Positions 396 through 5,609 of a DNA stretch of 5,609 bases are shown here, one piece after another. Origin of the DNA: an uncultured Demequina sp. (GTDB taxonomy: Bacteria > Actinomycetota > Actinomycetes > Actinomycetales > Demequinaceae); the NCBI GenBank assembly GCA_937925595.1, contig CALALQ010000185.1:1-5609 (forward strand), read 5' to 3'. The position numbers and the translations under genes were made by a program. How positions within the stretch are numbered: position 1 is the first letter of the stretch; each line of letters starts with the position of its first letter. The notes beneath the pieces are model-generated. The model searched no databases. It was given only the letters and a program-made list of their open reading frames with translations, and had not been told where the DNA came from.

Positions 396-2165
396 ATGCT
401 TCGCATGTCCACGCTGTTCCTGCGCACCCTCCGTGAAGACCCGGCCGACGCCGAGGTCGCCTCCCACAAGCTGCTGGTTCGCGCCGGCTACATTCGCCGC
501 GCCGCCCCAGGCATCTACACGTGGCTGCCGCTGGGACTGCGCGTGCTTGCGAAGGTCGAGCAGATCGTGCGCGAGGAGATGGATGCTGCTGGTGCCCAGG
601 AGGTGCACTTCCCGGCGCTGCTTCCCAAGGAGCCGTATGAAGCATCGGGCCGATGGGACGACTATGGGCCCAACATCTTCCGTCTGCAGGACCGCAAGGG
701 CGGCGACTACCTGCTTGCCCCCACGCATGAGGAGATGTTCACGCTGCTCGTCAAGGACCTGTACTCCTCGTACAAGGACCTGCCGCTGCAGATCTATCAG
801 ATCCAAACCAAGTACCGCGATGAGGCGCGCCCCCGCGCGGGTCTGCTGCGTGGCCGCGAGTTCATCATGAAGGACGCGTACTCGTTCGACGTGAGCGACG
901 AAGGGCTTGACGCCTCGTATGCCGCTCAGCGGGCGGCGTATGTGCGCATCTTCGAGCGCCTCGGCCTCGACTACGTCATCGTCTCGGCGATGTCCGGCGC
1001 GATGGGCGGCTCCAAGTCCGAGGAGTTCCTCAGCCCCACGCCCATTGGCGAGGACACCTATGTGCGCTCCCCGGGCGGCTACGCAGCGAACGTCGAGGCG
1101 GTCACCACTCCCGTGCCGCCCCCCATCGATTGGTCCGACGCTCCTGCCGCACACGTCGAGGACACCCCCGACACGCCCACCATCGATTCGCTCGTCGACC
1201 ACGCGAACGCGCACTTCCCGCGCGCGGATCGCCCCTGGACGGCCGCCGACACGCTCAAGAACGTCGTGCTCGCGGTGACCACTCCTGCCGGCGAGCGCTC
1301 GCTGCTCGTGGTGGGCATGCCCGGCGACCGCGACGCTGACATGACTCGCCTCGAGGCCGCGCTGTCGCCCCACCTTGTGGAACCGGCGACGGAAGAGGAC
1401 TTCGCGAAGCACCCCGAGTTGGTCAAGGGCTACATCGGTCCCGCGGTGCTGGGGCCGCAGGCAGGCGAGGACGGCATCCCTTACCTCCTGGACCCGCGCG
1501 TCGTGCCTGGCACACGCTGGATCACCGGCGCCAACGAGCCCGGTCGCCACGTCTTCGACCTCACAGCTGGCCGCGACTTCGAGGCCAACGGCACCATTGA
1601 GGGCGCCACGGTCCGCGATGGCGACCCCGCCCCCGACGGCTCCGGCCCGCTTGAGCTCGCTCGCGGCGTCGAGATCGGCCACATCTTCCAGCTGGGACGC
1701 AAGTACGCGGAGGCGCTCGACCTCAAGGTGCTCGACGAGAACGGCAAGCAGGTCGTCGTCACGATGGGCTCCTACGGCATCGGCGTCACGCGCTGTGTCG
1801 CGCTGCTCGCGGAGAACAACCACGACGAACTCGGCATCGTGTGGCCCGCGCAGGTCGCTCCGTACCACGTCCACGTGGTCGCGACCGGCAAGGACGATGC
1901 GGTCTTCGAGGCGGGCGAGAAGCTCGCTCGCGAGCTTGAGGATGCGGGCATCGAGGTGCTCTACGACGACCGCCCCAAGGTCTCCCCGGGAGTGAAGTTC
2001 AAGGACGCCGAGCTCATCGGCGCGCCGTTCATCCTGGTGGTCGGCCGTGGTCTCGAGACCGGCGAGGTCGAGTTCAAGACTCGCGCCACGGGAGCCTCGG
2101 AGTCCCTGCCCCTGGCCGACGCTGTGGCCACCGTGGCCGCTCGCGTCGCCGACGCGCTCGCTTAG
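396..2165 (+). CDS. proS: Prolyl-tRNA synthetase (ProRS, bacterial type with editing insertion)
   Basis: Encodes a 589-residue cytoplasmic class II aminoacyl-tRNA synthetase that attaches proline to tRNA-Pro using ATP; the length fits bacterial ProRS. The N-terminus [20 protein letters not shown] and the motif 1 region ending FPALLP (about 60-77) are typical. Motif 2 lies at about 134-164 ([11 protein letters not shown], then [11 protein letters not shown]). The INS editing domain, which hydrolyses Ala-tRNA-Pro, spans roughly 222-405, with TLKNV at 286-290 carrying the probable editing lysine, GYIGP at 345-349 and GANEPGRH ending at His385. Motif 3 is GSYGIGVTR at 458-466, and the anticodon-binding domain fills about 487-585 ([13 protein letters not shown] at 530-542). 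ATG 396 is preferred because [12 protein letters not shown] starts are usual in actinobacterial homologues and it fits a leaderless promoter; ATG 405 is the alternative. The open frame extends upstream to 237, but that overlaps the regulator and has no family similarity. The stop codon interlocks with that of the opposing lipoprotein gene. Confidence 0.97.
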
Positions 2166-3052
2166 TCCGCTGCAGCCGGCTTGGTGCCCGGCAGCGCGGG
2201 AACCTCGCTTGCGGTGAGACCCACGCGGCCCGCCGCGACGTAGTTCTCGTACGCCGCGTTGAGCAGCCACCCCCGGTCTACGACGTCCGCGCCAACAAGC
2301 AGCGCCGCGTAGCGCTCGGCGAGGGCCTTGCGCGCCGCGAGCACGGTTTCGGCTCGCGCTGCCTTCTTGGCCACCGACGCCGCGGGCACGTCATATACGG
2401 GTTCAGTGAGGTCGGGGACTCCCGGCACCGCGAGCAGCGTCTCCACGCGCTCCCTTTCAATGACCGACGCTGCGAGGGCCTGCTCGCGCTCCGCACCCTT
2501 GGAACGGGCGGCGGCCACCTCATAGAGCGAGCGCAGCTTGTCGTGCTCGAGGGCAAGCACTGCGATCTCATCGCGATCGAGCACGCTGTCAGAGCCGGGC
2601 TCGGTTCCGCCGTCGACGACTGTGCCTGGGGCGCTGTCGGGATCCGCAGTCCCCGCGATCGCCGCATGGGACAGCGCAATCGACGCGCACAGTGCCGCGA
2701 GTGGATCGTCTCCAGCCGCGACCATGCAGTCGACAGCCGCGGCTTGCGCCTCAGCAGCGGCCGCCGCAAGGTCGGCCGCCGCGCGGGGAGAGGACGTGGG
2801 CGACACGCCAGCCAGCAGTTCAAGGCGAGCGGGGACGGCTGCTGCCTCAGCGTCGGCCTGGGGACCGGTGGCGAGGTCCGCGGCGGTGCCGACTGCCTGC
2901 TCAAGTGCCGCGATGTGGTCGCGCAGAACGGTGATCTCTGACGGGCTGCGGAACGGCTCGGGATCGGTCTCCAGCCGCCACGAGCACGCGGTGAGGGAGA
3001 CGGCGACCGTGAGCATCGCCACACTCGTCGCTGTCGCCTTCGCCAAGGTCAT
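2162..3052 (-). CDS. Alanine-rich lipoprotein with probable ferritin-like (DUF4439-type) C-terminal module
   Basis: Reverse-strand gene for a 296-residue predicted exported lipoprotein, counting from ATG 3052. The N-terminus MTLAK is followed by a hydrophobic segment and the lipobox LTAC (20-23), so signal peptidase II should cleave before Cys23 and anchor the protein to the outer face of the membrane. Residues 36-135 are Ala-rich and helical, with two further cysteines (Cys109, Cys122) that could form a disulfide. A Gly/Pro/Asp-rich linker (about 136-158) leads to a second helical module (160-280) with [25 protein letters not shown] and [10 protein letters not shown]. This pattern resembles DUF4439, a ferritin-like four-helix fold found beside rimP in actinobacteria; I recall comparable genes (Rv2843/Rv2844) between proS and rimP in Mycobacterium. 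Function is unknown and metal binding is not shown. In-frame ATGs at 3061 and 3064 are alternative starts, and none has a clear ribosome-binding site. Codon use is like that of the neighbours. Confidence 0.8.
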
Positions 3053-3062
3053 GGGCGCCATC

Positions 3063-3588: not shown

Positions 3589-4608
3589 ATGGACATTGAT
3601 CTGAACGCCCTGCGTGGGCTCGAGAAGGAGAAGGACATTCGCTTCGACGTTCTCGTCGACGCGATTGAGCAGGCGCTCCTGTCCGCGTATCACAAGACGC
3701 CCGGCGCGTATCGGAACGCTCGCGCACACCTCGACCGCGAGACCGGCCTCGTGACGATCCTCGCCCGCGAGGAGCTCTCGGTCGACGAGGACGGCGTTGC
3801 CGAACTGAGCGAGGAGTTCGACCACACTCCGCATGACTTTGGCCGCATCGCCACAGCGACCGCTCGCCAGGTGATCGTGCAGCGACTGCGCCAAGCGGGC
3901 GACGAGGCGGTGCTCGGCGAGTACGCGGACCGCGCGGGACACCTCATCTCCGGCGTGATCCAGCAGTCCGCGGACCCCCGCAATGTGCACGTCGACATCG
4001 GCGACGTCGAGGCCATCCTCCCGCCGCATGAGCAGGTGCCCACGGAGACGTACACGCACGGCGATCGCCTCCGCGCGTATGTGCTCGATGTGAGCCGCGG
4101 CATGAAGGGACCCTCCATCACGCTGTCGCGCACCCACCCCGGTCTTGTGCGCCGCCTGTTCGAGCTTGAGGTTCCGGAGATCGCCGACGGCACCGTCGAG
4201 ATCATGTCTCTCGCTCGCGAGGCCGGCCACCGCACCAAGATTGCCGTCCGCGCGACGGTGCCCGGCGTCAACCCCAAGGGCGCATGCATCGGGCCCATGG
4301 GCGCTCGCGTCCGCGCCGTCATGAGCGAGCTGCGGGGCGAGAAGATCGACATCGTCGACTGGGACGAGGATCCCGCGACGTTCGTCGGCAATGCGCTGTC
4401 CCCGTCCCGTGTGGTCTCCGTCGAGGTTGTCGACGAGGAGGCTAAGGCGGCCCGCGTGATCGTGCCCGACTTCCACCTCTCGCTCGCCATCGGCAAAGAG
4501 GGTCAGAACGCCCGCCTCGCCGCGCGCCTCACCGGCTGGCGCATCGACATTCGCTCGGATGAGGCCCCCGACGTGCCCGGCGCGTCGAAGCCCGGTGCCG
4601 ATTCTTAA
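3589..4608 (+). CDS. nusA: Transcription termination/antitermination factor NusA
   Basis: Encodes a 339-residue RNA polymerase-associated factor that modulates pausing, intrinsic termination and rRNA antitermination. The N-terminal RNA polymerase-binding domain covers about 1-105 ([15 protein letters not shown]). An S1 domain follows at about 115-182 ([21 protein letters not shown], then [12 protein letters not shown]). KH1 is at about 186-280 with the loop [11 protein letters not shown] (231-241), and KH2 at about 281-325 with [20 protein letters not shown] (301-320). The C-terminal acidic repeats of E. coli NusA (about 495 residues) are absent, as is normal for actinobacterial NusA, so this is not a truncation. 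A Shine-Dalgarno-like aggga (3578-3582) inside the end of rimP lies 6 bases before the ATG. The RIPFASV and GSIEIDFKGQG end of RimP and this start leave only 3 non-coding bases, which supports translational coupling. Confidence 0.97.
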
Positions 4609-4618
4609 GGCGAGCGAG

Positions 4619-4624
4619 TAGAAT
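4619..4624 (+). promoter_or_regulatory. Possible internal -10 box overlapping the ylxR start codon
   Basis: The hexamer tagaat matches TATAAT at 5 of 6 positions and is conspicuous in such GC-rich DNA. It overlaps the ATG of ylxR (4623), so a transcript from it would begin near 4631, inside ylxR, and could carry infB separately. No convincing -35 box stands 16-18 bases upstream (tgccga at 4596-4601 is poor), so this is a weak candidate. Confidence 0.2.
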
Positions 4625-4910
4625 GGTCGAGCCGAGCACGTCGTCTCGAGAAACCCCCACCTCGCACGAAGGCCCTCACAGGCCCCTGCGAACGTGCGTG
4701 GGATGTCGACAGAAGGCAGCTCGGTCGGATCTGGTGAGAGTGACCCTCGTCGACGGCCGTGTCGTCATCGATGAGAAGGCCACTCAGCCTGGCCGCGGCG
4801 CATGGCTGCACCGCAGTCAGGAATGCCTTGACCTGGCGATCAAGCGCAGAGCCTTCGCACGTGCGTTCCGCACGAGCGTGGCTGACGCCTCTTCGCTGGG
4901 ACTCGGCTAA
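4623..4910 (+). CDS. ylxR: YlxR (RnpM-like) small RNA-binding protein
   Basis: A 95-residue basic protein of the YlxR family (DUF448), found between nusA and infB in many Gram-positive bacteria. The hallmark RTCVGCRQKAARSDLVRV starts at residue 23 and contains the CxxC pair (Cys25, Cys28). The second conserved block, GRGAWLHRSQECLDLA, is followed by the basic KRRAFARAFR helix. The fold presents a positively charged surface, and in Bacillus subtilis the homologue (renamed RnpM) binds RNase P RNA and modulates its activity; whether that holds here is inference. The first 20 or so residues (PSTSSRETPTSHEGPH) are polar, probably disordered and not conserved. ATG 4623 is the only plausible start, 14 bases after the nusA stop; aagg at 4607-4610 is a weak, distant ribosome-binding site, so it may depend on ribosomes leaving nusA. 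Confidence 0.93.
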   Translation: MVEPSTSSRETPTSHEGPHRPLRTCVGCRQKAARSDLVRVTLVDGRVVIDEKATQPGRGAWLHRSQECLDLAIKRRAFARAFRTSVADASSLGLG

Positions 4911-4952
4911 CCTAGTTCGTGCCCACCCATCGACAGAACGGGATGAAAGCCC

Positions 4953-4995
4953 ATGAGCACCCGATGAGTACCTCGAAATGAGTACCCAGCAGTAA
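4953..4995 (+). other. Tandem array of three mini-ORFs, each starting ATGAGYACC
   Basis: Three reading frames of 4-5 codons lie in a row, each in a different frame: 4953-4967 (Met-Ser-Thr-Arg, stop TGA), 4964-4981 (Met-Ser-Thr-Ser-Lys, stop TGA) and 4978-4995 (Met-Ser-Thr-Gln-Gln, stop TAA). The first two stops overlap the next start as ATGA, the classical coupling geometry. The first nine bases of each are the same apart from one synonymous change (AGC or AGT for serine), with unit spacings of 11 and 14 bases. A weak ribosome-binding site (ggga, 4940-4943) precedes the first. An in-frame ATG at 4943 would lengthen the second frame to 12 codons. Whether ribosomes use these frames is unknown; a plain sequence duplication is the alternative. 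Confidence 0.5.
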
Positions 4996-4999
4996 CGAT

Positions 5000-5023
5000 G
5001 GTTCGACCCTGTCCGGGCGAACC
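5000..5023 (+). other. Strong hairpin upstream of the infB ribosome-binding site
   Basis: GGTTCG (5000-5005) pairs with CGAACC (5018-5023), and CCC (5007-5009) with GGG (5015-5017). This gives nine base pairs with one bulged A (5006) and a five-base loop. It leaves the Shine-Dalgarno aggag (5029-5033) single-stranded. No T-run follows, so it is not an intrinsic terminator. CCTGTC (5008-5013) can instead pair with GACAGG (5026-5031), covering part of the Shine-Dalgarno sequence; the two structures cannot coexist. Confidence 0.55.
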
Positions 5024-5028
5024 GAGAC

Positions 5029-5033
5029 AGGAG
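5029..5033 (+). promoter_or_regulatory. Shine-Dalgarno sequence of infB
   Basis: The sequence aggag lies 4 bases before GTG 5038. The spacing is slightly short, but this is the only purine-rich match nearby, and it fixes the infB start. Its first three bases fall within the alternative pairing 5008-5013/5026-5031. Confidence 0.75.
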
Positions 5034-5037
5034 AATT

Positions 5038-5609
5038 GTGGCAAAGCCCCGCGTTCATGAGATCGCGAAGGAGCTCGGTGTACCGAGCAAGGACCTGATT
5101 GCCAAGCTCAACGAGCTTGGCGAGTACGTCAAGGGTCCGTCTTCTACTTTGGAAGCACCCGTCGTGCGCAAGGCGCGCGAAGCCTTCCCTGCTGCCGCCA
5201 ACAAGCCGGCAGCGGCTGCCCCTGCGGCGAAGGCTCCTGCCGCGCCCAAGCCGGCAGCACCCAAGCCCGCCGCACCCGCGGCACCTGAGGCGCCCAAGCC
5301 CGACGCTGAGGCGGCTCCCGCTCCCAAGGCGCCCGCCCCTGAGGCCCCTGCCGCAGCGTCGGCCAAGCCCAGCGCTCCCGCGCCCTCGCCTGCGGACATG
5401 CCTCGCCCGCGTCCCCGACCGGGCGGAAACAACCCGTTCTCGGACCGCAGCGACGTTCCGCGTCCGCGCCCGCGTCCGGGTGGCAACAACCCCTTCCAGG
5501 CTCCTCGCACCCCCGGGCCGCGCCCCGGTGGTGCCGGTGCCGCGCGTCCCGGTGCTCCGCGTCCCGGCGGTGCCGGTGCCCCGCGTCCCGGTGGCGGCGC
5601 CCCCCGTCC
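5038..5609 (+). CDS. infB: Translation initiation factor IF-2, N-terminal part (runs off window)
   Basis: The first 190 codons of IF2, the GTPase that brings fMet-tRNA to the 30S subunit and promotes subunit joining; the GTPase and tRNA-binding domains lie beyond the window. GTG 5038 opens [19 protein letters not shown], the IF2 N-terminal helical domain (about 1-50, with [20 protein letters not shown]) as in other actinobacteria. Residues 51-120 are a low-complexity Ala/Pro/Lys segment. From 121 the chain becomes Pro/Arg/Gly-rich, with [13 protein letters not shown] at 122-134 and again at 141-153, then repeated RPGG-type units to the window end. Such long, disordered, basic linkers are characteristic of actinobacterial IF2. 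It is separated from ylxR by the 127-base leader described above, and may have control separate from the rest of the operon. Confidence 0.96.

Follow-up and report, generated by a model that had tools for sequence, protein, structure and literature searches.

In Actinomycetes, the leader of infB, the gene for the initiation factor IF2, carries a chain of three mini-ORFs coupled by stop/start overlaps, and this chain is real and not a local feature of the window, the whole stretch of 5,609 bases analysed here. Frames and overlaps are kept across the class while the encoded peptides diverge, which strongly suggests that the mini-ORFs behave as translated, coupled frames, as the first-pass annotation of this DNA had proposed; their translation in the cell we infer from this pattern. 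We put at about even chances the further reading that this termination-reinitiation chain would gauge initiation capacity and set IF2 synthesis by negative feedback.

The window holds proS, a reverse-strand ORF, rimP, nusA, ylxR and the start of infB, in this order. The leader lies on the forward strand between ylxR (DUF448, positions 4623-4910, stop codon at 4908-4910; Pfam PF04296, E-value 1.6e-22) and infB (positions 5038-5609, GTG start, running off the window; Pfam PF04760, E-value 1.1e-12). Among the best 80 of 593 loci, the one with the best E-value came from a Demequina lutea MAG (NusA 83%). The minus-strand ORF (2165-3058, about 300 aa) is without a Pfam match and has, by eye, a lipoprotein-like start. 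Rfam returned no match, either for the whole window at the gathering threshold or for positions 4880-5100 at E-values up to 1.

The first mini-ORF, uORF1 (4953-4967), encodes Met-Ser-Thr-Arg and ends in a TGA (4965-4967) that overlaps the ATG of uORF2 (4964-4981, Met-Ser-Thr-Ser-Lys), whose own TGA (4979-4981) overlaps the ATG of uORF3 (4978-4995, Met-Ser-Thr-Gln-Gln, ending in TAA at 4993-4995). All three are on the forward strand in three different frames, joined by two ATGA overlaps at 4964-4967 (junction 1) and 4978-4981 (junction 2), and not by three consecutive overlaps as first annotated. The ATGAGYACC openings annotated at 4953, 4964 and 4978 were confirmed: the motif occurs exactly three times in the window, always at a mini-ORF start, and has no copy on the opposite strand.

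Loci for comparison were collected in several draws. The first comprised 80 named loci, the best of 593. Others covered the phylum, the order to which a Pseudonocardia locus belongs, the class, and 30 of its members in which IF2 similarity was weaker; another 80 stretches of class members were added. In the class draw 211 genomes matched, from which loci were taken from 30 (one already in the set), 80 and 30. An infB start was found in 276 of the 277 loci, and L277, which had none at a tblastn threshold of 1e-3, was dropped. Comparison by identity over the last 140 nt left 246 distinct leaders out of 257 from Actinomycetes. We defined a strict chain as at least three mini-ORFs with 4-nt overlaps, each of at most eight codons, and a relaxed chain as one in which an overlap may also be 1 nt and the last ORF may reach 30 codons.

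The strict chain was present in 218 of the 246 leaders, which are related and therefore not independent counts, versus 16 of 4,920 dinucleotide shuffles and 1 of 8,738 other 200-nt windows taken from both strands of the same loci; the suspicion that the arrangement exceeds chance was thus borne out. The relaxed chain was found in 244 leaders, 46 shuffles and 4 other windows, and in the two leaders without it (L155 and L177) the third mini-ORF begins 2 nt past the second stop. A check for absent or frame-broken mini-ORFs in relatives, set beforehand, found the chain present and its frames kept. Both last junctions are 4-nt overlaps in 227 of the 244 chains, and one is a 1-nt overlap in the other 17; in a few leaders (e.g. 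L111) the counted chain differs from the one adjoining the hairpin described below because the parser takes the longest chain.

Position-wise conservation was assessed in a 74-row alignment of the window and 73 of 98 dereplicated leaders drawn from 214 of the 244. Mean column identity was 40%, and invariant columns occurred only at the two junctions and the infB start, in rows that had all been chosen as chain-bearing. At junction 1 the TGA is invariant and the preceding base is A in 61 rows, G in 13 and never C or T; at junction 2 both A columns are kept in all 74 rows, T in 73 and G in 71. The near-identical units of the window are what a short duplicated segment, the main alternative offered in the first-pass annotation, would leave behind. 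Diverged lineages lose the repeat character and keep the coupling, so duplication is untenable as the main explanation, and against diverged peptides in kept frames and the chain counts given above, a duplicated segment or plain chance is hardly credible as the origin of the chain.

The chain appears to be confined to infB. When 40 genomes were searched with a strict sequence pattern, allowing at most two mismatches, 23 gave a single match each, and by coordinate comparison all 23 lay within about 100 nt upstream of infB. Sixteen of the 17 genomes without a match have an infB chain of other sequence or length, and the remaining one (L177) has the near-chain mentioned above. Neither infC leaders (0 of 29) nor infA leaders (0 of 29) carried a chain, the upstream stretch being less exact in a few loci at contig ends. 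The chain was also absent from all 19 leaders (L092-L110) that carry no taxon label and were treated as other classes because of their origin in the phylum draw, their weaker IF2 similarity and the absence of their genomes from the class draw.

What is conserved in the chain is its frames. The 244 chains encode 179 different peptide triplets (among them MSTR|MSTR|MSTPMK, MSVR|MKSLR|MSKLRE, METK|VNGSK|MRPVRD, MKLK|MSSFTS|MRSNN and MSTP|VKSR|MTMRHS), and a conserved peptide sequence, as in a stalling leader peptide or attenuator, was not found among them. The lengths are narrow, with four codons for uORF1 in 192 of the 244 chains, four to five for uORF2 in 228 and five to six for uORF3 in 199. 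Distances from one RTGA to the next, scored with no ORF required, were 2 mod 3 in 470 of 545 cases in the leader versus 11 of 23 in the region from -300 to -150, the commonest being 11 nt (222) and 14 nt (193); in a subset of 57 leaders with chains more than 20% apart, 105 of 126 such distances were still 2 mod 3. CGATGAG units recur in many lineages, and it is conceivable that GATGAG repeats serve as a protein- or RNA-binding motif with translation incidental. We regard this as very improbable: the motif is lost where GTGA replaces ATGA at junction 1 (uORF2 starts with GTG in 37 of 244 chains), with the overlap kept, and the spacing shifts mostly by steps of three.

Some variation was seen at the beginning of the chain. 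In G288, G309, G350, G388 and others ACG stands in place of the uORF1 ATG, and a GTG in the same frame lies nine bases 5′; in these genomes the start would either be shifted or be the ACG itself. A uORF1 opening of VTLTS was found in 14 of the 244 chains.

The codons at the junctions are also restricted. The stop is TGA in 239 of 244 chains for uORF1 and in 243 for uORF2. Among last codons ending in A, CGA accounts for 163 of 192 in uORF1 and 174 of 242 in uORF2 (32 of 43 and 31 of 56 after dereplication). In infB and nusA, taken as background, CGA makes up 4.4% of 5,076 codons that end in A, and uORF3, which is followed by no junction, closes with CGA in 4 of 244 chains. CGA is decoded through a weak inosine-adenine pair, and an easily released P-site tRNA at this codon might ease the 2-nt move onto the overlapping AUG. 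The CGA before the stop hints that release of the P-site tRNA matters, and it raises the alternative that the chain senses UGA termination or recycling, formylation or initiation-stalling drugs, infB being one output. The prevalence of TGA and the reported dependence of reinitiation on formylated initiator (PMC2268962) agree with such sensing, but the ATGA overlap itself forces TGA, and the chain occurs only at infB in the genomes and genes tested; we consider this alternative improbable.

The distribution of Shine-Dalgarno (SD) sequences suggests where ribosomes would enter. Duplex energies, computed against a 12-base 16S tail, had medians of -9.4 kcal/mol for uORF1 and -9.6 for infB versus -3.7 for uORF2, -2.2 for uORF3 and -4.4 at random leader positions. 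Exact SD matches of at least four bases were found in 169 of 244 leaders for uORF1, 42 for uORF2, 47 for uORF3 and 242 for infB, and at 380 of 1,220 random positions. Since uORF1 and infB pair well and uORF2 and uORF3 do not, the latter two look to be entered by reinitiation only. The window fits this pattern in part: uORF2 and uORF3 are without a good SD, infB has the strong AGGAG at 5029-5033 (-9.8 kcal/mol; nearly invariant in the alignment), but the SD-like stretch before uORF1 (4935-4943), which aligns with the conserved GRAAGCRGGT of relatives, pairs more weakly (-6.0 kcal/mol). Upstream of uORF1 a conserved GRAAGCRGGTCGA, close to an extended SD, starts mostly 17-18 nt before the mini-ORF. 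Shuffled upstream regions of uORF1 pair fairly well too (median -6.7; tenth percentile -10.4 versus -10.2 for the real ones), and this, like the weak pairing in the window, counts against the model developed below. A further ATG in the window, at 4943, opens MKAHEHPMSTSK (4943-4981), which begins 5′ of uORF1 in the frame of uORF2; its pairing with the 16S tail is poor (-1.7), and by eye the frame is open in L002 too.

Just 3′ of the last stop lies a conserved hairpin (5000-5023, GGTTCG at 5000-5005 pairing with CGAACC at 5018-5023). In the alignment of relatives 89.9% of the cells are paired versus at most 58.8% when the stem is slid, and 48 cells are changed on both sides versus 14.2 in shuffles. 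The first paired base lies 0-6 nt past the last stop in 200 of 239 leaders (the ones, among 246, whose chain ends at the hairpin), the end nearest to the hairpin being taken where alternative chains exist. The leader thus has a stable structure directly after a stop, a trait of a ribosome termination structure. In twelve leaders from Arthrobacter, Pseudarthrobacter, Paenarthrobacter, Kocuria and Rothia the last frame extends to 20-30 codons and nevertheless stops 1 nt ahead of the hairpin; in these leaders (L015, L020, L021, L022, L025, L030, L031, L032, L041, L050, L069 and L076) that frame often encodes M(S/T)TLL(C/R)S....

The infB start is GTG in all 246 Actinomycetes leaders, as called by a parser that favours SD-bearing start codons, and is nonetheless invariant in the 74-row alignment; the 19 outgroup genes start with ATG (12), TTG (5) or GTG (2). 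For nusA in the named loci, ATG (36 of 79) and GTG (35 of 79) are about equally frequent, and the other 8 are without a start at that place.

Sequestration of the infB SD by the conserved hairpin was considered and rejected, as folds of the spacer alone leave every SD base unpaired in 175 of 231 leaders (those of the 244 with a spacer of 25-75 nt); when the whole leader is folded, the mean probability that the SD is unpaired is 0.61. The first-pass annotation had further suggested that failed reinitiation would refold the downstream RNA. With a ribosome modelled at the last mini-ORF stop, the energy needed to open the infB start rose by more than 0.5 kcal/mol in 69 leaders and fell by as much in 58, with a median change of 0 (n = 231), and ribosomes placed on the start of uORF1 or on any of the stops likewise gave no consistent change. 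Because the modelled ribosome positions changed access to the infB start inconsistently, a class-wide refolding switch was rejected and this step was dropped from the model for the class. A local form of the suggestion may survive. The minimum-energy fold of the window prefers, over the conserved hairpin, an alternative stem (5008-5031, CCTGTC at 5008-5013 with GACAGG at 5026-5031) that pairs part of the SD; it is not class-wide, and by eye it is visible in other Micrococcales rows of the alignment too. Competition between the CCTGTC/GACAGG and GGTTCG/CGAACC pairings is a possible switch or pseudoknot of Micrococcales only.

The main rival of negative feedback also draws on the spacer. infB might be a fourth coupled cistron, the hairpin folding the spacer so that the uORF3 ribosome lands on the infB SD; the chain would then promote infB, and output would drop steeply if any reinitiation factor were short. 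The distance from the last stop to the GTG minus the hairpin has a median of 16 nt (239 leaders), and in two leaders of one order (L269 and L270) the hairpin is absent and the last stop lies 20-21 nt from the GTG, a spacing that suits ribosome delivery better than exclusion; a search for more hairpin-less leaders in that order returned the same two only, of 3 genomes. The free SD of the spacer-only folds and the uniform GTG fit delivery as well, and PMC12548453 takes up ribosome delivery by a uORF. Against this, expression downstream in a synthetic operon dropped when a stable structure stood just 3′ of a stop codon (as reported in PMC7518266), IF2-dependent steps that promote IF2 would amount to positive feedback, and infB has a strong SD of its own. 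We think such a relay unlikely, if a serious contender, and favour negative feedback.

A gauge of initiation capacity is the simplest reading because steps that would depend on IF2 precede the IF2 gene and a hairpin lies between the chain end and the infB SD. Under negative feedback, a ribosome would load at uORF1 through the SD of this mini-ORF and, after four amino acids, terminate at the UGA overlying the next AUG. Entry into uORF2 and then uORF3 would require the post-termination 30S subunit to catch fMet-tRNA with IF2 before leaving, twice over. The last stop sits against one side of the hairpin and the infB SD against the other. With ample IF2, recapture at each junction would keep the leader occupied and bring the ribosome to the hairpin, where it would hinder initiation at the weak GTG of infB; with scarce IF2 or fMet-tRNA, the chain would break early, the leader would empty and infB would be translated. 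We infer both that IF2 is what the chain senses and which sign the control has. IF1 and IF2 reportedly remove short peptidyl-tRNAs, to go by the title of a 1998 paper by Karimi. In E. coli, reinitiation at a coupled cistron is reported to be raised by IF2 overexpression and to need the formylated initiator (PMC2268962); a review calls such overexpression data hard to interpret and describes a 70S-scanning view (PMC12548453). The E. coli result backs the link to IF2 from outside. The first-pass idea that reinitiation would fail when IF2 is scarce is plausible.

Several observations count against the negative-feedback model, among them the short hairpin-less spacers of L269 and L270, the window's own fold, in which the other stem pairs part of the SD, and the lack of class-wide refolding at the infB start. 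In addition, 4 of 16 leaders of the Arthrobacter-Nesterenkonia kind (L053, L074, L077 and L078) have a gap of 35-72 nt between the end of the parsed chain and the hairpin. The leader is flanked by two genes that apparently form an operon, and ribosomes moving along it might guard the RNA of that operon against Rho or RNase, or attenuate transcription, without any sensing of initiation. The exact frames, the narrow lengths and the SD-less uORF2 and uORF3 would then be needless, and no intrinsic terminator was found at positions 4600-5100 of the window; we give this explanation little credence. A nearby sigma-70 promoter was likewise not found in these positions.

If negative feedback through the chain is correct, it would be a bacterial means of measuring the cell's own initiation capacity and a natural system in which to test the dependence of reinitiation on initiation factors. 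The chain is present in nearly every leader sampled from the actinomycetes, a class to which antibiotic producers and pathogens belong, and its conserved four-codon frames escape length-limited ORF callers.

The main texts of the open-access literature searched gave no account of a chain in the infB leader, nor of serial termination-reinitiation as a bacterial control device. infB expression in E. coli is treated in PMC6511841, and infB has no occurrence in the text portion of an M. tuberculosis start-site map (PMC9094748). The junctions resemble ATGA/TGATG gene overlaps, in which the second frame depends on the first (PMC6728339); there the tested pairs are genes, whereas the infB leader strings together serial frames of about four to six codons. 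Very short frames are shared with minigenes and peptidyl-tRNA drop-off, a picture that, as drawn in the pertinent parts of PMC10192219, is without a chain of overlapping frames. The hairpin matches the ribosome termination structure of PMC7518266 in being stable and just 3′ of a stop, but in the infB leader it follows a mini-ORF stop and adjoins the infB SD. The uPPE2-PPE2 pair of Mycobacterium tuberculosis is likewise an actinomycete uORF with an AUGA overlap, reported to work mainly by termination-reinitiation; unlike the infB chain, it has one uORF, riboswitch control and another gene as its target (PMC11260477).

Taken as a whole, the arrangement may be an ancient, class-wide GCN4-like leader, in which serial reinitiation over three mini-ORFs measures IF2 and fMet-tRNA and feeds back on infB, the number of restarts setting the steepness; we hold this tentatively, at somewhat less than even chances. 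In the control of GCN4 in yeast, several short uORFs precede a regulator and output is tied to delivery of the initiator tRNA. Several uORFs precede the regulated frame of infB as well; unlike GCN4, where ribosomes scan between spaced uORFs, the bacterial chain has direct stop/start overlaps, and it would control the initiation factor itself. In E. coli, infC is autoregulated by IF3 through an AUU start. As in that case, the start region of an initiation factor gene would report the activity of the factor, but at infB the AUU start is absent and its place is taken by the uniform GTG and the mini-ORF chain upstream.
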